Shown: positions 4,056-64,000 of the stretch, piece by piece
Numbering within the stretch: the first letter of the stretch is position 1
How the letters are laid out: every line of letters starts with the position of its first letter
Assembly (NCBI RefSeq): GCF_006861825.1
Contig: NZ_VDGI01000011.1
Location: forward strand, 1-64,000
Direction of reading: 5' to 3'
Source of the DNA: Psychrobacillus vulpis
GTDB lineage: Bacteria; Bacillota; Bacilli; Bacillales_A; Planococcaceae
DNA: 64,000 nucleotides
The notes under the pieces: model-generated
Seen by the model: only the letters and a program-made list of their open reading frames with translations
Told to the model about the DNA's origin: nothing
The model's database searches: none
Made by a program: the position numbers and the translations under genes

Positions 4056-4832
4056 ATGTCAAACAATTTATATGTGGAGCGAAACGGTTCGATCGCTACC
4101 CTTGTTATTAATCGAGCAGAAAAGAAAAATTCATTTTCTCTTGCTATGTTTAAACAATTAGGAGTAATTTTAGATGAATTGGAAGCAGATCAACAAGTAA
4201 GATTGTTAATTGTAAAAGGTGTAGATGAAACTGCTTTTTCTTCAGGTGCTGATATTTCCGAGTTTCTTGAAAATCGTTTCTCTTCTAGTAATGCAAAAAA
4301 ATACAACGATGCTACACTCGAGTCTATAGAAAAGCTTTATCGCTTTCCAAAACCTACGATTGCACTTATTAAGACACTAGCAATTGGTGGTGGCTTAGAA
4401 CTTGCTAATTCCTGCGATTTCAGATTTGCAACATCTGGAAGCAAACTTGGGATTACTGCTGCAAACATCGGGATTGTTTACAACTTAACGAGCACGAAAC
4501 GATTAGCAAATCTAATCGGTCCATCTAAAGCGAAAGAATTACTATATACAGCTAAGTTAATCTCAGCAGAAGAAGGAAATGAAATTGGATTAATCGATTA
4601 TGTTTATTCAAAAGAAGAAATTGAAGAAAAATGTTTGGAATTTGCCGAGAAAATTGTTCGTAAATCTTCTGTAGCAAACAACGGTATCAAACAAGTTATT
4701 CAATCGATTATTGACGGAGAAAATGAAGAAACTAAAGAAATCGAACAACTCATTTTAGATTCTTTTAGTTCGGATGATTATAAAGAAGGAATTGCAGCGT
4801 TTTTAGAAAAAAGAAAGCCTAACTTTTCTTAA
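4056..4832 (+). CDS. Enoyl-CoA hydratase/isomerase-family protein lacking one catalytic Glu
   Basis: A 258-residue crotonase-fold protein. It shows the oxyanion-hole stretch AFSSGADISEF, the second oxyanion and Glu motif IGGGLE (Glu115), and the family C-terminus FLEKRKPNF. The second catalytic Glu of true hydratases, normally in F-G-x-P-E-x-x-x-G, is replaced: the segment reads LGITAANIG with Ala135 at that site. Simple water addition by the standard two-Glu mechanism is therefore doubtful. Isomerase, decarboxylase, thioesterase-like or methylthio-acyl-CoA chemistry are alternatives. The frame opens at 4041, but GGGAGGG lies 6 bases before ATG 4056, which is chosen. It lies between metP and a hydroxy-acid oxidase in a tight run of genes. 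Confidence 0.8.
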   Translation: MSNNLYVERNGSIATLVINRAEKKNSFSLAMFKQLGVILDELEADQQVRLLIVKGVDETAFSSGADISEFLENRFSSSNAKKYNDATLESIEKLYRFPKPTIALIKTLAIGGGLELANSCDFRFATSGSKLGITAANIGIVYNLTSTKRLANLIGPSKAKELLYTAKLISAEEGNEIGLIDYVYSKEEIEEKCLEFAEKIVRKSSVANNGIKQVIQSIIDGENEETKEIEQLILDSFSSDDYKEGIAAFLEKRKPNFS

Positions 4833-4844
4833 GGGGTGGAAAAA

Positions 4845-5987
4845 ATGACGAATGGAAAAAATAATGATTTATTATTAGTGAACATCGGTTCAACAGAAAA
4901 ATTTCCAATTAACTTTCAAGAATTAGAGCAAGCTGCAAAAGAAAAATTGACAACAGGCCCATTTGGATACATTCGCTCATCTGCTGGAGGTGAAGAAACG
5001 TATCGAAAAAATATAGAAGCTTTTCCTAAGTACTCCATTGTGCCAAGGTTTCTAAACGATGTTTCCACATTAAATACGGAAGTAACAATTTTTGGTCGTA
5101 CATACCCCCACCCTCTTTTCATCGCCCCAGTTGGAGTGAATAAAATTGCACATGAAGATGGGGAAATCGCCGTAGCAAAAGCTGCAGCAAAATATGATTT
5201 TCCGTACATACAAAGTACAGTTTCCAGCTATTCAATAGAAGAAATTGCAGCTGCTACAGAAGGAAGCTCGAAATGGTTTCAATTGTATTGGTCACAAAAT
5301 AAAGAAATTGCATTTAGTATGGTAAAAAGAGCGGATCAAGCTGGGTATGAAGCAATTGTTTTAACGGTTGATACAGTAATGCTTGGCTGGCGTGAAGAAG
5401 ATGTTCGCAACCAATTCTCTCCCCTAAAAAGAGGTTTTGCAAAAGGAAACTATGCATCCGATCCTGTGTTTATGTCTGCTTTACCAGATCATGAGGAAGA
5501 AACGATTATAAGTAGTATCGTTGAAAACATTTATCATCCTTCCTTAAATTGGGATAATATTGCTGAACTAAAAGAAAGAACTACACTGCCAATTCTTATT
5601 AAAGGTATTCTGCATCCGGAAGACGCTAAGTTGGCAATTGAAAAGGGAATTGATGGAATAATAGTGTCAAATCATGGTGGCCGTCAATTAGATGGAGTCA
5701 TCGCTAGCATCGATGCGCTCCCTGCAATCGTTGAAGCAGTTAACGGTAAAATTCCCGTATTATTTGATAGTGGTATTAGACGTGGTTCAGATGCTGTCAA
5801 AGCGTTAGCACTTGGTGCAACTGCTGTTTGTATTGGCCGACCTTTTGTTTGGGGCTTAGCTGCAGATGGTCAAGCTGGTGTTGAAAGAGTATTAGAAAAC
5901 TTCTTACAAGAAACTAAGGTTTCCATTTCTTTAAGTGGAGTAAGCAATCTTAGTCAACTTCGCAATTTGAAGATTGTGAGAAATTAA
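4845..5987 (+). CDS. FMN-dependent 2-hydroxy-acid oxidase/dehydrogenase
   Basis: A TIM-barrel FMN enzyme of 380 residues from the lactate oxidase, lactate 2-monooxygenase and glycolate oxidase family. It oxidises the alpha-hydroxyl of an acid to a 2-oxo acid. The N-terminal FGYIRSSAGGEETYRKN, APVGVNKIAHEDGE, FQLYWSQNKE, VLTVDTVMLGWREEDVRN and the catalytic VSNHGGRQLDG (His277) followed by DSGIRRGSDAVKALALGA are visible. The GGRQLD Arg binds the carboxylate. A GTG at 4836 is in frame, but the AAGGGG box overlaps it and lies at good spacing from ATG 4845. The family cannot fix the substrate. In an S-box operon with a Met transporter, a methionine-derived hydroxy acid is an attractive guess. Confidence 0.85.
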   Translation: MTNGKNNDLLLVNIGSTEKFPINFQELEQAAKEKLTTGPFGYIRSSAGGEETYRKNIEAFPKYSIVPRFLNDVSTLNTEVTIFGRTYPHPLFIAPVGVNKIAHEDGEIAVAKAAAKYDFPYIQSTVSSYSIEEIAAATEGSSKWFQLYWSQNKEIAFSMVKRADQAGYEAIVLTVDTVMLGWREEDVRNQFSPLKRGFAKGNYASDPVFMSALPDHEEETIISSIVENIYHPSLNWDNIAELKERTTLPILIKGILHPEDAKLAIEKGIDGIIVSNHGGRQLDGVIASIDALPAIVEAVNGKIPVLFDSGIRRGSDAVKALALGATAVCIGRPFVWGLAADGQAGVERVLENFLQETKVSISLSGVSNLSQLRNLKIVRN

Positions 5988-6000
5988 AGGTGGTAAATTA

Positions 6001-7194
6001 ATGGAACAAGCTTTAAAAGGTATGAAAGTGGTCGATTTATCTCAAGTGTTAGCTGGGCCATATTGCACGATGGTGCTAGGAGATATGGGAGCAGATGTTG
6101 TCAAAGTAGAGAAATTTCCACTTGGCGATGACACTCGAACAATGGGACCTTATATAAATGATGAAAGCTATATGTATATGATGGTAAATCGCAATAAACG
6201 TGGTGTTTGCCTTAATTTAAAAACTGACGAAGGCTTACAAGTTTTATATAAACTTATTAAAGAGGCAGATGTTTTTATCGAAAACTATCGACCAGGAGTT
6301 ACAAGGAAGCTTGGTATTGATTATGATAGGTTAAAGGCGATGAATCCTAGCATTATTTATTGCTCTATTTCTGGTTATGGTCAAACTGGTCCTTACAAGA
6401 GTAGAGGCGGATTTGATATTATGGCACAAGGTTTATCTGGATTAATAAATATGACGGGTGAACGTGAAGGAAAACCTGTTAAAGTAGGAATTGCTATTCA
6501 TGATATTGCGGCTGCTCAAACAGCGATTCAATCTATTTTAGCTGCTTATATTCATCGATTGAAAACAGGTATTGGACAGTATATCGATGTTTCACTTGTA
6601 GATTCAGGACTTGCTTGGACAGTATGGGAAGCTGCTGCTTATTTTGGCAAAGGCGAAGTACCACGTAGAAATGGAACGGCACATCGCGTTTCAGCTCCTT
6701 ATCAAGGCTATAAAACAAAAGATGGTTTTATACTTATAGGCGCAGCGAATCAAAAACTGTGGGAAAAATTTTGTTTATCTGTTGTCAATAAACCAGAATG
6801 GGTTGCAGATGAACGTTTTTTAACAAATAGTATACGTGCACAACATGTAGATGAATTAGAAATAGAAATGGAAAAAGTGTTGATGGAACATAATTCCACC
6901 TACTGGCTTGATTTATTGGATAAGAGTGGTATTCCTTCTGGCCCAATATATTCTTATGACCAAACACTTTCAGATGAACATATTCTTTCAAGAGAAATGA
7001 TTTTAAAATACGAACACCCAGTAGCTGGTGAGATGAAAACACTTGGCTTTCCTGCTAAGTTTTCAGAAACACCTAGTCAATTGAAAAGTCCTGCTCCCCT
7101 TCTTGGTCAACATAATAAAGAAGTATTAGTAGAACTAGGTTATTCTATAGATGAGATAGATAGTTTATTAACAAATAGTGTACTAAAAAATTAA
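6001..7194 (+). CDS. CaiB/BaiF family (type III) CoA-transferase
   Basis: A 397-residue family III CoA-transferase that moves CoA between carboxylic acids. Recognisable stretches are VVDLSQVLAGPYCTMVLGDM, GADVVKVEKFPLGDDTR, NRNKRGVCLNLK, ENYRPGVTRKLGIDY, YCSISGYGQTGPY and the catalytic Asp168 in IAIHDIAAAQ. That Asp corresponds to the Asp of formyl-CoA transferase that forms the acyl anhydride. It begins 13 bases after the oxidase gene with GGTGG before ATG and is the last gene of the run. Together with the crotonase-fold protein it implies a CoA-ester route. No acyl-CoA dehydrogenase or ligase lies nearby, so the pathway is incomplete here. Confidence 0.88.
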   Translation: MEQALKGMKVVDLSQVLAGPYCTMVLGDMGADVVKVEKFPLGDDTRTMGPYINDESYMYMMVNRNKRGVCLNLKTDEGLQVLYKLIKEADVFIENYRPGVTRKLGIDYDRLKAMNPSIIYCSISGYGQTGPYKSRGGFDIMAQGLSGLINMTGEREGKPVKVGIAIHDIAAAQTAIQSILAAYIHRLKTGIGQYIDVSLVDSGLAWTVWEAAAYFGKGEVPRRNGTAHRVSAPYQGYKTKDGFILIGAANQKLWEKFCLSVVNKPEWVADERFLTNSIRAQHVDELEIEMEKVLMEHNSTYWLDLLDKSGIPSGPIYSYDQTLSDEHILSREMILKYEHPVAGEMKTLGFPAKFSETPSQLKSPAPLLGQHNKEVLVELGYSIDEIDSLLTNSVLKN

Positions 7195-21398: not shown

Positions 21399-21524
21399 TA
21401 AAAGCGTAGACAATCGTTGAGGTACTTGGTCGTGATGAATTCAAAAAGTAGCATTTGATAAAGCAATTAGTTATATTACAACCCTCTAAGACACCTTATT
21501 CAAATACAATAAATCAATAATAAA

Positions 21525-22230
21525 GAAAATCGTTGAAACGGCTCCCTTTCCGCGGACGTTGCCTTAGCCTCCTCGCTTCGCTGCGGGGTCTTCGGCTAAC
21601 GCTATTCCCGCAGGAGTGTCGCCTTTTTCAACGATTTTCTAGAAATTAAAAAGTAGAGTGTGGATTGTTGGATTCCCTCTACTTTTATTAGTTTTTGAGA
21701 CAACATTTTGCTGATTTTGCCAGATGGGTTTGTCTAATAGCCCCAATTCATAAGAAAATCGTTGAAACGGATCCCTTTACGCGGACGTTGCCTTAGAGTC
21801 CTTGCTTCGCTGCGGGGTCTTCGGCTAACGCTATTCCCGCAGGAGTGTCGCCTTTTTCAACGATTTTCTAGAAATTAAAAAGTAGAGTGTGGATTGTTGG
21901 ATTCCCTCTACTTTTATTAGTTTTGAGACAACATTTTGCTGATTTTGCCAGATAGGTTTATCTAATAGCCCAATTCATAAGAAGATCGTTAAAACGGCTC
22001 CCTTTCCCCGGGCGTTGCCTTAGCCTCCTCGCTTCGCTGCGGGGTCTTCGGCTAACACTATTCCCGCAGGAGTGTCGCCTTTTTCAACGATTTTCTAGAA
22101 ACTAATAAGTAGAGTGTGAACTATTGGATTCCCTCTACTTTTATTAGTTTTTGAGACAACATTTTGCTGATTTTGCCAGGTAGGTTTGTGTAATAGCCCA
22201 ATTCATAAGAAAATCGTTGAAACGGCTCGT
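21525..22230. repeat. Tandem array of about 228-bp units containing the palindromic repeat
   Basis: The motif CGTTGAAACGG recurs at 21531, 21760, 21987 (as CGTTAAAACGG) and 22215, giving spacings of 229, 227 and 228. Each of three complete units carries the dispersed palindromic repeat (inverted ends GAAAATCGTTGAAA/TTTCAACGATTTTC), then AAGTAGAGTGTGGATTGTTG, TTGAGACAACATTTTGCTGA and TTTGCCAGATAGGTTTGTC. The fourth begins and then diverges. The same unit, single copy, lies at 47125-47325. No coding frame spans it. Confidence 0.9.
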
Positions 22231-39409: not shown

Positions 39410-39553
39410 GCAACTTATTGTCCAAGTTTTAATGTGGATTGTCCAACTTTTCATGAAGATTGTCCAACTTCATCGGTTATTGTCCAACTATCATGGTTTA
39501 TTGTCCAAACTTCATTGGTTATTGTCCAACTATCAAGATTGATTGTCCAATTC
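39410..39553. repeat. Seven TTGTCCA boxes at 21-bp phase
   Basis: TTGTCCA occurs at 39418, 39439, 39460, 39480, 39501, 39522 and 39543, so spacing is 20-21 bases, two helical turns. Intervening bases are similar but variable (ACTTTTCATGAAGA, ACTTCATCGGTTA, ACTATCATGGTTTA). It lies between the convergent katA and ABC transporter genes. It is not CRISPR-like, having no conserved repeat longer than about 9 bases. All boxes lie on one face of the helix. Confidence 0.9.
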
Positions 39554-59299: not shown

Positions 59300-59524
59300 A
59301 TGTGTATGAATAAAAAAGAAGATCATAAGGGAGGAATCTTCCACTTACTTTCTACTTTAAATCCTGGTACTGATGTAGAAGATGTTTTTATTAACGGTAG
59401 AGAGGAATCTGTTGATTCTTTTGCTACGTTTAACCCTTTCACTGGTCTAGCTTATTTCTCAAAAAACAATGGTGAAATTTTAGTTGTTGATTTTCGTAAA
59501 ATTGATGCAATTGAATTTAACTAA
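59300..59524 (+). CDS. Small spore-locus protein (74 residues)
   Basis: A short protein with a charged N-terminus (MCMNKKEDHKGG) and a compact beta domain (IFHLLSTLNPGTDVEDVFIN, DSFATFNPFTGLAYFSKN, GEILVVDFRKIDAIEF). The same pattern ends the giant protein on the opposite strand (LLKNLAPGTNITQLTVKG, SSFIEYNSFTNISTF, LSVNTNQIDSLTLS). The strand pattern also recalls DUF2642-type barrels. AAGGAGGTGAT lies 7 bases before ATG. It is convergent with the giant gene and shares a terminator hairpin. The function is unknown; its place suggests a spore-surface role. Confidence 0.75.
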   Translation: MCMNKKEDHKGGIFHLLSTLNPGTDVEDVFINGREESVDSFATFNPFTGLAYFSKNNGEILVVDFRKIDAIEFN

Positions 59525-59532
59525 TCTCTTGA

Positions 59533-59570
59533 AAATTGGCTCCTTAACTCAAAGTTAAGGAGTCAATTTG
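59533..59570. terminator. Shared terminator overlapping the giant gene's last codons
   Basis: ATTGGCTCCTTAACT/AGTTAAGGAGTCAAT around CAA. On the reverse strand the 3' part encodes the final residues DSLTLS and stop of the giant gene, so terminator and coding end coincide. Confidence 0.88.
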
Positions 59571-62500
59571 ATTTGTATTAACGGATAATATATTATTATT
59601 TTCGAGGAGAAATGTTGAAATATTTGTAAATGAATTATATTCAATAAAAGAGGATACTTTTATTATTTTTCCCTTAACTGTTAGTTGTGTAATATTAGTA
59701 CCCGGAGCTAAATTTTTTAGCAAGTTTATTATAGGTTTATCTAGGCTAACTTCCTTTTTTGTATGGAACGGCTGAAGTTCTTCAAAATTTATTTTTTCTT
59801 GTTGATTTCTTGGTTTCACAGTATACATATTTAAGCTAGGTTGATGTACAGTATCCATTGAAACTTTTTGTACTTGGAGTAATTGCACTATTAATTCTAA
59901 AACAATATTTTGACGTAGTAGATGAAATATAGCTTCTAATTCGTTTGTTACTGATTTTTCAACTTGATTATGACCTGAAATATATTCAATATTTTGATTA
60001 ATATATCCTTCAATAAATAGCTTCCCTCTTAATGCTTCCCGTGTTTCTCCCATTTTTGAAAACGAGAATCCGGCAGGTACGAACTTGCAATTTGTTAATA
60101 TTACTTTTTTAGAAATTTCTAAAACTTTATGAATTTTTTCTTCAAATAAAACATCTTCTTCTAAACTAATTTCGACGTTATATTCTCCTACTACTACTGG
60201 TACTTTAATACTAACAGAAGGAGTAAAATTTGCTTCTCTTGTTTTAACAGATACTGCATCATGTATTGGAGTTAATACAGACCTAGTATTCCCCCTTCCT
60301 TCCTTCATTTTTTTATTATATTTGTAATTAATCTCGATTGTATCTAGGATTTCATGGGATTTAAAGCCTACTAAGTAACAGTATGGCTCTTCATGATAAG
60401 ATGTTATTGTATTAAATAGTTTTGTGTTTAGTTGTGGAATTTGTTTATTATAAGGGTCGATATATTTAAATGTATTTTGAAATGTACTCCCAAATATTGG
60501 AGGGTTAAGGAATGTGTCAATATCCGAAACGCTGGAGAACGGAATTTTTATTGATCTCGATCTTACTCCTGATTGTTTATTAAGCTCCGTCGTATAATTA
60601 GGTTTATGATTTATTTCATTTACTAAGTTTTCTTCTTCTGCTTCTTTCACTTGGAAAAGTTGCTCTGACGATACAACTTCCTGATCTTTCTCTGCCTTCA
60701 ATAGTGAAGAATGTTCAGGCTCGTCAGTTAAACTTGTTCTGGAATCTATAGTTCGATGTTGTAAGTTATAAATTTTTACAAAGGTAGTATTGGGTATTTT
60801 TATTGTCCTAGGTTTTAACCCTAGTTGTATGTTTGGCTCATTTAGCCGATTTGTATCATTATCAAAACTTTCTTCTACAGTTTCTTCCACTTTGGAAGTG
60901 TGCTCAGACCTGAATTCTATTTCCTGTACTGTTGAATCTTCCAAATGATCGAGCTCTTGGTCATTTTTCAGAAGGTGTTGGAATTTATATATTTTTAAGA
61001 AAGTAGAATAAGGGATTTTTATCTTTCTCGATTTTGTTCCTAATGGATTATTTGTCTCCTTAAGTTGATTGCTTTCGCTTTTTATTTCATTGAAAAAATT
61101 TTCTTTTATTGTTTCTTCCATTTGGAGAGTGTGTTCAGACGTAGGTACTACTTCTTGTACTGTCCCTGTTTCCAATTGATCGAGATCTTGGTCATCTACT
61201 GTTTCACTCCAATTCGGACGGTGTTGGAAATTATAGATTTTTATAAAAGTGGTATAGGGGATTTTCATTGTTTTCCGTTTTGTTTCTAATTGGTTACTGG
61301 GTTCCATTTGGTGATTAGTATCCTCATTCTTTTCATTAACAAAATTTTCTTCAATCGTATCTTCCACTTTAAACGTGGGTACTGTTTCTTGTACTGTCTC
61401 TACTTCCAATTGATCGAGCTCTTGGTCATTGATATCAACTGGGCTGCTCCAATCCGGTCGGTATTGGAAGTTATAGATCTTTATGAAAGTGGTGTAGGGG
61501 ATTTTTATGGTTCTCCGTTTTGTTTCTAATTGGTTACTGGGTTCCATTAGGTGATTAGTATCCTCATTCGTTTCATTAACAAAATTTTCTTCAATCGTAT
61601 CTTCCACTTTAAACGTGGGTACTGTTTCTTGTACTGTCCCTGCTTCCAATTGATCGAGCTCTTGGTCATTGACATCTAACGTTTCGCTCCAATTCGGACG
61701 GTGTTGGAAATTATAGATTTTTATAAAAGTGGTATGGGGGATTTTTATTGTTCTCCGTTTTGTTTCTGATTGGTTACTGGATTCCATTAGGTGATTAGTA
61801 TCCTCATTCGTTTCATTAACAAAATTTTCTTCTATCGTATCTTCCACTTCTGTCCTAGGTATCATTTCTTGTACTGTTTCTGCTACGAATTGATCGAGCT
61901 CTGTATCATTGACATCTACTGTTTCGCTCCAATTCGGACGGTGTTGGAAGTTATAGATTTTTATGAAAGTGGTATAGGGAATTTTTATGGTTCTCCATAT
62001 TGCTTCTATTTGTTTATTGGGCTCTATTAGGTGATTTGTATCCTCATTCGTTTCATCAACAAAATTTTCTTCAATCGTATCTTCCACTTTAAGCGTGGGT
62101 ACTATTTCTTGTACTGTCCCTGCTTCCAATTGATCGAGCTCTTGGTCATTGACATCTACTGTTTCGCTCCAATTCGGACGGTGTTGGAAACTATAGATTT
62201 TTATGAAAGTGGCATAGGGGATTTTTATTGTTCTCCGTTTTGTTTCTAATTGATTACTGGGTTCCATTAAGTGATTAGTATCCTCATTCTTTTCATTAAC
62301 AAAATTCTCTTCAATCGTATCTTCCACTTTAAACGTGGGTACTGTTTCTTGTACTGTCCCTGCTTCCAATTGATCGGGCTCTAGGTCATTGACATCTACT
62401 GTTTCGCTCCAATTCGGACGTTGTTGGAAATTATAGATTTTTATAAAAGTGGTATAGGGGATTTTTATTGTTCTCCGTTTTGTTTCTGATTGGTTACTGG

Positions 62501-64000
62501 GTTCCATTAGGTGATTAGTATCCTCATTCGTTTCATTAACAAAATTTTCTTCCATTGTATCTTCCACTTTAAACGTGGGTACTGTTTCTTGTACTGTCTC
62601 TACTTCCAATGGATCAAGCTCTTGGTCGTTGATATCAATTGGGCTGCTCCAATCCGGTCGGTGTTGGAAATTATAGATTTTTATGAAAGTGGTATAGGGG
62701 ATTTTTATTGTTCTTGATTTTATTCCTAATTGCTTATTGGGCTCGATTGGGTGATTTGTTTCGTCATTCGTTTCATTAAAAAAATTTTCTTCTTTCGTAT
62801 CTTCCACTTCGTACCTAGGTACTATTTCTTGTACTGTTTCTGCTTCCATTTGATCGAGCTCTTGGTCATTGATATCAACTGGGCTGTTCCAATCTGGTCG
62901 GTGTTGGAAGTTATTGAGCTTTAAGAAACTGGTATAGGGAATTTTTATTGTTCTCCGTCTCGTTTCTAATTGGGTACTGGGTTCCATTAGGTGATTAGTA
63001 TCCTCATTCGTCTCATTAACAAAATTTTCTTCTATTGCATTTTCCTCTTCGGACCTAGGTATTATTTCTTGTACTCTCCCTGCTTCCAATTGATCGAGCT
63101 CTGGATCATTGACATCTACTGTTTCGCTCCAATTCGGACGGTGTTGGAAATTATAGATTTTTATGAAAATGGTATAGGGGATTTGTATGGTTCTCCATTT
63201 TGTTTCTGATTGGTTACTGGGTTCCATTAGGTGATTAGTATCCTCATTCGTTTCATTAACACATTTTTCTTCTATCTTATCTTTGACTTTGAACATGGGT
63301 ACTGTTTCTTGTACTGCTTCCAACTGATCGAACTCTAGCTCATTTATATCAACTGTGCTGCTCCAATTCGGACGGTGTTGGAAATTATAGATTTTAATGA
63401 AAGTGGTATAGGGGATTTTTATGGTTCTCCGTTTTGTCAATTGGTTGCTGGGTTCTATTAGGTGATTAGTATCCTCATTCTTCTCATTAACAAAGTTTTC
63501 TTCTAGTGTATCTTTGACTTTGAACATAGGTACTGTTTCTTGTACTGTCTCTGCTTCCATTTGATCGAGTTCTGAATCATTGACATCTACTGTTTCGCTC
63601 CAATTCAGACGGTGTTGGAAATTATAGATTTTTATGAAAGTGGTATAGGGGATTTTTATGGTTCTCCATTTTGTTTCTGATTGGTTACTGGGTTCCATTA
63701 GGTGATTAGTATCCTCATTCGTTTCATTAACAAAATTTTCTTCAATCGTATCTTCCACTTTAAACGTGGGTACTGTTTCTTGTACTGTCCCTGCTTCCAA
63801 TTGATCGAGCTCTTGGTCATCGATATCAACTGTGCTGCTCCAATCCGGTCGGTGTTGGAAATTATAGATTTTTATGAAAGTGGTATAGGGGATTTTTATT
63901 GTTCTCCGTTTTGTTTCTAATTGATTACTGGATTCCATCAGGTGATTAGTATCCTCATTCTTTTCATTAACATATTTTTCTTCTATTGTATCTTTGACTT
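59544..64000 (-). CDS. Giant tandem-repeat SPOCS-related spore protein (5' end beyond window)
   Basis: An open frame of more than 1480 codons, still open at the right edge; the ATG near 63938 is inside a repeat and is not the start. At least 14 units of about 80 residues (240 bases) run from the right edge to about 60530. Each begins T-K-R-R-T-I-K-I-P-Y-T-T-F-I-K-I-Y-N-F-Q, then H-R-P-N-W-S-E-T-V-D-V-N-D, an acidic middle (VPTFKVEDTIEENFVNE) and NEDTNHLMEPSNQ. The last two or three units are diverged. After them come RSIKIPFSSVSDIDTFLNPP and EEPYCYLVGFKSHEILDTIE (like the second half of the SPOCS paralogues), a SPOCS-like part (VSIKVPVVVGEYNVEISLEE, GKLFIEGYINQNIEYISGHN), IVLELIVQLLQVQKVSM, and a domain like the 74-residue protein. 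It is very acidic and probably on the spore surface. Confidence 0.85.
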   Translation of the reverse strand, partial: VKDTIEEKYVNEKNEDTNHLMESSNQLETKRRTIKIPYTTFIKIYNFQHRPDWSSTVDIDDQELDQLEAGTVQETVPTFKVEDTIEENFVNETNEDTNHLMEPSNQSETKWRTIKIPYTTFIKIYNFQHRLNWSETVDVNDSELDQMEAETVQETVPMFKVKDTLEENFVNEKNEDTNHLIEPSNQLTKRRTIKIPYTTFIKIYNFQHRPNWSSTVDINELEFDQLEAVQETVPMFKVKDKIEEKCVNETNEDTNHLMEPSNQSETKWRTIQIPYTIFIKIYNFQHRPNWSETVDVNDPELDQLEAGRVQEIIPRSEEENAIEENFVNETNEDTNHLMEPSTQLETRRRTIKIPYTSFLKLNNFQHRPDWNSPVDINDQELDQMEAETVQEIVPRYEVEDTKEENFFNETNDETNHPIEPNKQLGIKSRTIKIPYTTFIKIYNFQHRPDWSSPIDINDQELDPLEVETVQETVPTFKVEDTMEENFVNETNEDTNHLMEPSNQSETKRRTIKIPYTTFIKIYNFQQRPNWSETVDVNDLEPDQLEAGTVQETVPTFKVEDTIEENFVNEKNEDTNHLMEPSNQLETKRRTIKIPYATFIKIYSFQHRPNWSETVDVNDQELDQLEAGTVQEIVPTLKVEDTIEENFVDETNEDTNHLIEPNKQIEAIWRTIKIPYTTFIKIYNFQHRPNWSETVDVNDTELDQFVAETVQEMIPRTEVEDTIEENFVNETNEDTNHLMESSNQSETKRRTIKIPHTTFIKIYNFQHRPNWSETLDVNDQELDQLEAGTVQETVPTFKVEDTIEENFVNETNEDTNHLMEPSNQLETKRRTIKIPYTTFIKIYNFQYRPDWSSPVDINDQELDQLEVETVQETVPTFKVEDTIEENFVNEKNEDTNHQMEPSNQLETKRKTMKIPYTTFIKIYNFQHRPNWSETVDDQDLDQLETGTVQEVVPTSEHTLQMEETIKENFFNEIKSESNQLKETNNPLGTKSRKIKIPYSTFLKIYKFQHLLKNDQELDHLEDSTVQEIEFRSEHTSKVEETVEESFDNDTNRLNEPNIQLGLKPRTIKIPNTTFVKIYNLQHRTIDSRTSLTDEPEHSSLLKAEKDQEVVSSEQLFQVKEAEEENLVNEINHKPNYTTELNKQSGVRSRSIKIPFSSVSDIDTFLNPPIFGSTFQNTFKYIDPYNKQIPQLNTKLFNTITSYHEEPYCYLVGFKSHEILDTIEINYKYNKKMKEGRGNTRSVLTPIHDAVSVKTREANFTPSVSIKVPVVVGEYNVEISLEEDVLFEEKIHKVLEISKKVILTNCKFVPAGFSFSKMGETREALRGKLFIEGYINQNIEYISGHNQVEKSVTNELEAIFHLLRQNIVLELIVQLLQVQKVSMDTVHQPSLNMYTVKPRNQQEKINFEELQPFHTKKEVSLDKPIINLLKNLAPGTNITQLTVKGKIIKVSSFIEYNSFTNISTFLLENNNILSVNTNQIDSLTLS

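Follow-up and report, generated by a model that had tools for sequence, protein, structure and literature searches.

A giant BC_2427-family protein of Psychrobacillus vulpis whose acidic arm carries lysine-bearing copies of its own domain strand

The long acidic arm of a giant protein encoded by Psychrobacillus vulpis is, judged from sequence comparison, built of units that each carry a modified, lysine-bearing copy of the first strand of the protein's own C-terminal domain. This arrangement, found in Psychrobacillus and Paenisporosarcina, is what is new here. Taking all lines of evidence together, our best but still tentative reading is that the protein may be a flexible tether on the spore surface that carries docking strands.

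The window (the whole stretch of 64,000 nucleotides that was analysed) contains only part of the gene (Table 1). The original prediction described a tandem-repeat protein with at least 14 units of about 80 residues and a period of 240 bases, in a reading frame open at the window edge. The contig (135,996 bases) continues beyond the array and the frame is unbroken there, the complete open reading frame (ORF) running on the minus strand from a TTG at contig base 66038 down to 59544 (2164 codons), with the N-terminus beyond the right edge of the window. ATG codons occur at positions 13 and 51 of this ORF, each with a purine-rich stretch upstream. The ATG at codon 51 (contig 65888), preceded by AAGGAGGGGAGA, is the probable start, failing which codon 13, because the resulting N-terminus, MTIPWYNYEAIMKLSLKQ, is similar to the start MKTPWINYxxMKEISSKQ of the relatives.

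The core motif of the protein occurs 22 times between codons 207 and 1828; 21 copies lie in the arm and the 22nd opens the C-terminal domain, the unit number being that given by the genome assembly. Fourteen unit starts (codons 712 to 1744) fall inside the window, as predicted, and seven further units (codons 207-711) lie past its right edge. From codon 712 to the domain, 9 of the 14 steps are exactly 80 codons long and the rest are 79, 78, 82, 73 and 84, and Tandem Repeats Finder returned a period of 240 with 12.0 copies at window positions 61139-63994; over the array, unit length varies from 52 to 85 codons. The two predicted flavours of unit (NWSETVDVND, DWSSPVDIND and their variants) are both present and, by eye, intermixed in no regular order. 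The consensus charge of the units is +4 in the core and -13 in the linker. Other repeats were seen at 21523-22228 (a 227-base unit, 3.1 repeats, 93% matches, GC-rich-looking by eye) and at 39417-39550 (tandem 21/42-base repeats, ATTGTCCAACTT...).

Table 1. Coordinates of the giant gene, its parts and its neighbours in the window
Feature	Position	Strand	Remarks
Giant BC_2427-family gene, part inside the window	59544..64000	-	Complete ORF 59544-66038 on the contig
Fourteen arm units inside the window	60561..63905	-	Codons 712-1826
BC_2427 / DUF7852 domain	59862..60560	-	Long beta strands (predicted), SPOCS-like; its first strand is the one copied in the arm
C-terminal tail, about 66 residues	59547..59747	-	Predicted helix and five strands, Sm/SH3-like (Foldseek match not significant)
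74-aa ORF	59300..59524	+	Related to the tail of the giant protein (34% identity, E 2.3e-7)
CsxC-family gene, 260 aa	57822..58604	-	CATANNNTA 29 bases before ATG
CsxC-family gene, 253 aa	56670..57431	-	CATANNNTA 167 bases before GTG

By its profile scores, the C-terminus of the giant protein is that of the curated BC_2427 family. The protein scored 324 bits against NF045793 (curated cut-off 200; profile positions 2-236 of 236) and 370 bits against Pfam PF25250 (DUF7852; cut-off 22), and 65 bits against the CsxC family NF045794, below the cut-off of 135. The family is thus already catalogued, and relatives in other genera have long, mostly acidic arms as well; the suggestion that the array represents an undescribed system is therefore not supported. 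A search of the open-access literature returned no paper on BC_2427. Matches of the repeats to Deoxyhypusine synthase, Urocanase, FliW and similar families were all under the cut-offs and are put down to chance, and a collagen-like nap was dropped as a candidate because the giant protein sequence has no Gly-X-Y repeats.

Alignment A2 includes the C-terminus of seven other orthologs, none of which has the C-terminal tail. The tail and the 74-aa ORF resemble the ends of proteins of 430-464 aa (L128, L129, L130 and L131) that by eye are Gln-rich and coiled-coil-like. These are encoded at a separate locus in four Psychrobacillus genomes that lack a BC_2427 match; one of the four is interrupted by a stop, and a small related ORF lies close by in three. 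It is possible that the Sm/SH3-like end module travels between loci.

The relation between arm and domain was recovered by different profiles. A profile built from 21 Lysinibacillus and Sporosarcina domains (first 45 columns) gave 18 matches in the giant arm at E up to 1 (best 7.9e-5), and 13 of them were better than the best match in shuffled proteins (0.045; one shuffle each of 28 proteins). When 29 of the arm cores (alignment A6) were compared with 32 domains in hhalign, the two aligned at the very start of the domain (probability 97, E 5.8e-11). Among the proteins examined, copies are present only in Psychrobacillus, with which we grouped G014 (filed as Bacillus sp. FJAT-22090), and in Paenisporosarcina. 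Counted by pattern, they number 21, 11, 8, 4, 3 and 1, then 3 and 1, per protein, and the profile finds four in one Paenisporosarcina protein. Core position 12 is a lysine in 51 of the 52 profile matches (eight proteins) and a glutamate in the remaining one, the profile having been built from domains with the residue at this position unrestricted. The first pattern, which allowed only K, E, D, R or N there, gave lysine in 48 of 49. At the equivalent position, the BC_2427 domain has Glu or Asp in 30 of 32 cases.

According to one alternative, the arm is a plain entropic spacer in which only length and negative charge count, and the copied strand came along as a passenger when its segment was duplicated. 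We consider this possible, although on the whole rather unlikely. The lysine kept in the copies where the domain strand is acidic argues against a passenger, and so does core constraint, seen in this single array: across ten 80-codon units of the giant protein, pN/pS was 0.22 in the 22-codon core vs 0.74 in the linker, a contrast and no formal test, since the unit pairs are non-independent. Of 80 circular windows, the core had the lowest value, and all 200 bootstraps over codons gave a difference between core and linker greater than zero. The core identity between proteins (0.47 vs 0.09 for shuffled cores, 1009 pairs) points the same way, though this figure is inflated by the use of the core pattern in finding the units. 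However, the core of P. soli is under no extra constraint (0.71 vs 0.63 in the linker, five units), as a spacer would lead one to expect, and together with the value of 0.47 for the core of sp. OK032 this weakens the idea that the copies dock; in sp. NEAU-3TGS, the core value was 0.20 (three units). The spacer is also favoured by G013 and G018, in which the gene is kept with no copies in the arm, indicating that the copies are dispensable in the family at large, and by the arms of relatives in other genera, which lack the motif and are long, mostly acidic and in many cases repetitive. The acidic nature of the repeat protein, as stated in the original prediction, is supported in the form of an acidic linker.

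Recombination had also been predicted to change the number of units, and the comparisons agree with this. One exact 141-base repeat joins distant units of the giant array, the number of units per protein ranges from 0 to 21 in the genus, and the nearest unit by linker belongs to the same protein in 43 of 52 units, as expected from lineage-specific amplification. Synonymous differences between the units of the giant array were 0.24 in the linker and 0.35 in the core, so most of these units are not recent. Furthermore, linkers of different proteins showed some similarity (local score 43 vs 28 when shuffled), and the whole unit is therefore inherited, the core not being its sole inherited part, which weighs against docking by the copies.

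A search in 261 genomes belonging to the same taxonomic family gave a full-length domain match in 34, 32 above the cut-off and two (G018 and G013) just under it. The 19 Psychrobacillus genomes, including the source, comprise eight with a BC_2427 gene, one (G011) in which it is decaying and ten with no match; the relatives referred to are P. soli (G010), P. lasiicapitis (G006), sp. OK032 (G012), sp. NEAU-3TGS (G017) and sp. BL-248-WT-3 (G018). In the decayed locus of G011 (L047, about 4500-6900), stops interrupt the arm units and reading then enters a CsxC fragment. A set of 31 named loci, a sample shaped by the peptide patterns used, was found with the family alignment A1, the giant protein's own C-terminus having given no match as a contig-search query. 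The other named loci come from Paenisporosarcina, Lysinibacillus, Sporosarcina, Viridibacillus, Peribacillus, Aeribacillus, Cytobacillus, Neobacillus, Brevibacillus, Parageobacillus and Paenibacillus. Pooling of 9 + 19 + 31 proteins and removal of duplicates by the last 150 residues left 42 for comparison; L091, the one locus among 20 that had no ORF by the pattern used, is represented as L115, and G218, one of the 34, was left out.

The N-terminal P-W/R-x-x motif (a loose pattern, sought in the first 120 residues) was present in 38 of the 42 proteins, and the arm was net negative in 37. Lengths ranged from 312 to 2164 residues, the giant protein being the longest; others exceeding 1000 aa were those of sp. 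OK032 (1392), Peribacillus cavernae (1349), P. soli (1250), Aeribacillus composti (1216), Neobacillus massiliamazoniensis (1152) and Peribacillus huizhouensis (1015). By eye, the arm repeats of different genera look unrelated. Long acidic arms are thus a habit of the family, of which the giant protein is the longest case among those compared. Separately, G030 (L048, 6447-8270) encodes a 607-aa protein with an acidic arm that looks repeat-like by eye and a weak C-terminal CsxC match (34.5 bits, cut-off 135). It may be an analogue; the genome lacks a full BC_2427 match.

The prevalence of negative arms and the linker charge would also suit a reservoir for cations (Ca2+) or polyamines, or a substrate for phosphorylation or cross-linking, in which acidity itself was selected. 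We regard this as very improbable. It leaves the basic core unexplained, and the eight arms that bear copies are not the most acidic ones, their net charge being -5.5 to -8.7% in five and about zero to +3% in three, whereas many arms without copies reach -15 to -25%.

The locus had been predicted to be of a spore-surface type, and its two CsxC-family neighbours (196 and 205 bits against NF045794, cut-off 135), along with the BC_2427-family C-terminus, support this. In all 31 named loci, a CsxC ORF accompanies the BC_2427 domain match on the same strand, at a distance of about 104 to 1231 nt; this adjacency is a feature found here and stands outside the curated definition of the BC_2427 family. 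Mass spectrometry has identified CsxC as a protein of the Clostridium sporogenes exosporium (PMC4942563).

The neighbouring CsxC genes carry a recurrent upstream signal. Of 81 distinct CsxC genes, which are related and hence non-independent, 67 have the element CATANNNTA in the 200 nt upstream, vs 22 of 203 control ORFs (longer than 200 aa, taken from all six frames at the same loci, not all proven genes); over 200 shuffles the mean was 12 of the 81 and the maximum 21. The element lies mostly near -60, and we take it to be the sigma-K -10 box. In a looser CsxC set, it was found in 69 of 86 genes vs 20 of 198 controls, and in combination with a -35 'AC' at the right spacing in 27 of 86 vs 15 of 198. 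Upstream of the giant gene there is no perfect CATANNNTA, and among the BC_2427 genes it was found in 6 of 33 scored (33 of 37 were scorable, four lacking a usable start or upstream region); one more, at the sp. OK032 BC_2427 gene, was seen in a separate count. Expression of the neighbouring CsxC genes during sporulation thus appears well supported by these promoter motifs, a support that would extend to the neighbours and not to the giant gene itself.

AlphaFold2 was run on the last three units, the domain and the tail of the giant protein. The model was weak overall (mean pLDDT 58, pTM 0.44); within the domain, block pLDDT rose to 85 to 96 in the strands and fell to 43 in the loops, the arm core formed a short strand plus a helix (block pLDDT 41 to 56), and the linkers were mostly below 50. 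The original prediction had proposed a filamentous or spacer layer and suggested predicting the structure of the unit. A filament or hair-like nap of repeats projecting from the spore would fit the length and regularity of the array, and C. sporogenes spores are described as bearing beaded filaments and other appendages (PMC4942563). We nevertheless find this explanation improbable, and the filamentous layer is without support: the linker is mostly below 50 pLDDT, the three modelled units have no repeat fold, and unit length is not kept, either in the giant protein or in the arm of sp. OK032 (66 to 137 codons). Foldseek against the PDB also gave no match at E 0.001 for the giant-protein model or for the CsxC model, the latter of which has six long strands (mean pLDDT 77).

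The protein had further been taken for a SPOCS protein. At most, a remote kinship is suggested. The giant protein is not listed against PF12673 (SPOCS, gathering threshold 23.6 bits) at E up to 1, one CsxC neighbour reached 14.1 bits, and no row with a bit score reached the SipL/SPOCS cut-off, bit scores being given for the first member only of the CsxC and BC_2427 sets. At E 0.1 or better, PF12673 matched 7 of 52 CsxC proteins (best 0.0082) and 3 of 32 BC_2427 domains (best 0.0028). Compared with 19 SPOCS repeats from a phylum draw of 199 genomes, the CsxC profile aligned over most of its length (probability 83, E 9.7e-6, a one-template E-value) and the BC_2427 profile over 69 columns (probability 60, E 8.5e-5). 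These alignments are suggestive of remote SPOCS homology for CsxC and more weakly so for BC_2427. The arm core gave nothing significant against the CsxC or SPOCS profiles; it falls on the SPOCS strand F-T-x-F-V-E-V-P-G-A, in a short alignment that alone is not significant (probability 5). A PDB sequence search returned nothing for CsxC and only chance-level ribosomal S17 matches for the BC_2427 domain. CsxC genes match the BC_2427 profile in split, re-ordered pieces, in which a permutation of the modules is also visible. By eye, three Peribacillus/Paenibacillus BC_2427-like proteins (L118, L119 and L120) have their modules in the CsxC order, which suggests that the domain was permuted within the group.

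Considering these results, we propose the following scenario. The giant protein would be a structural protein made by the mother cell and located on the outer spore surface (exosporium or outer coat), where the short N-terminal peptide TIPWYNYEAIMKLSLKQ may dock at one place and the SPOCS-like C-terminal domain may co-assemble with the neighbouring CsxC proteins. The acidic, mostly disordered arm would act as a tether whose length is altered by unequal recombination. Each unit in Psychrobacillus and Paenisporosarcina would display a positively charged short copy of the domain's first strand, and the copies may bind SPOCS-like domains (CsxC or BC_2427) in weak, repeated docking contacts, through which a single chain could cross-link up to 21 partners. 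The tether is a reasonable reading, and docking by the copies is a good hypothesis for which the evolutionary evidence is mixed. A precedent is provided by SpoVID (PMC6282716): an 11-residue region of its N domain, region E, given as a free peptide, lowered SafA binding to SpoVID at 1 and 10 uM and raised it at 100 uM, and the free peptide can replace E in SafA binding. The SPOCS domain of SpoVID binds CotE and SafA (PMC10867305). A bolder version, which we hold to be unlikely, makes the arm a multivalent scaffold for strand exchange, in which up to 21 charge-swapped SPOCS-type strands would dock on CsxC/BC_2427 domains by beta-augmentation or strand replacement and stitch the layer together, with the unit number tuning the cross-link density.

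A search of the open-access literature returned nothing pairing the exosporium with SPOCS and, for Psychrobacillus with spore or exosporium, nothing beyond a taxonomy review. CsxC and BC_2427 genes stand side by side in many spore formers, and strand copies that line a mostly disordered arm and consistently swap their charge bear on how SPOCS-like proteins recognise each other. With its copies, the arm may serve as a series of docking sites and not as a plain spacer, and the variable number of units would form a natural series of tether lengths.

In comparison with known systems, the giant protein shares with the BC_2427 family (NF045793; PF25250, DUF7852) the C-terminal domain, an N-terminal TPWINY-type motif, a mostly acidic arm and an adjacent CsxC gene. 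Unlike the other members, it has an arm of 21 units copying the domain's first strand; it is also the longest of the 42 compared and has the extra C-terminal tail. The modules of the CsxC family (NF045794) are homologous to the BC_2427 domain (hhalign probability 99, E 3e-16), but on our reading of the strand lists their order is b1-b2-b3-b4-b5-b6, compared with b4-b5-b1-b2-b3-b6 in the BC_2427 domain, and the arm, present in the giant protein, is absent from CsxC. Any likeness to the SPOCS domain (SpoVID, SipL, CotE; PF12673) would lie in the suggestive alignment of the CsxC profile along most of its length, whereas the giant protein differs from SPOCS proteins in having no LysM among its Pfam hits and in carrying an array of strands outside the domain.
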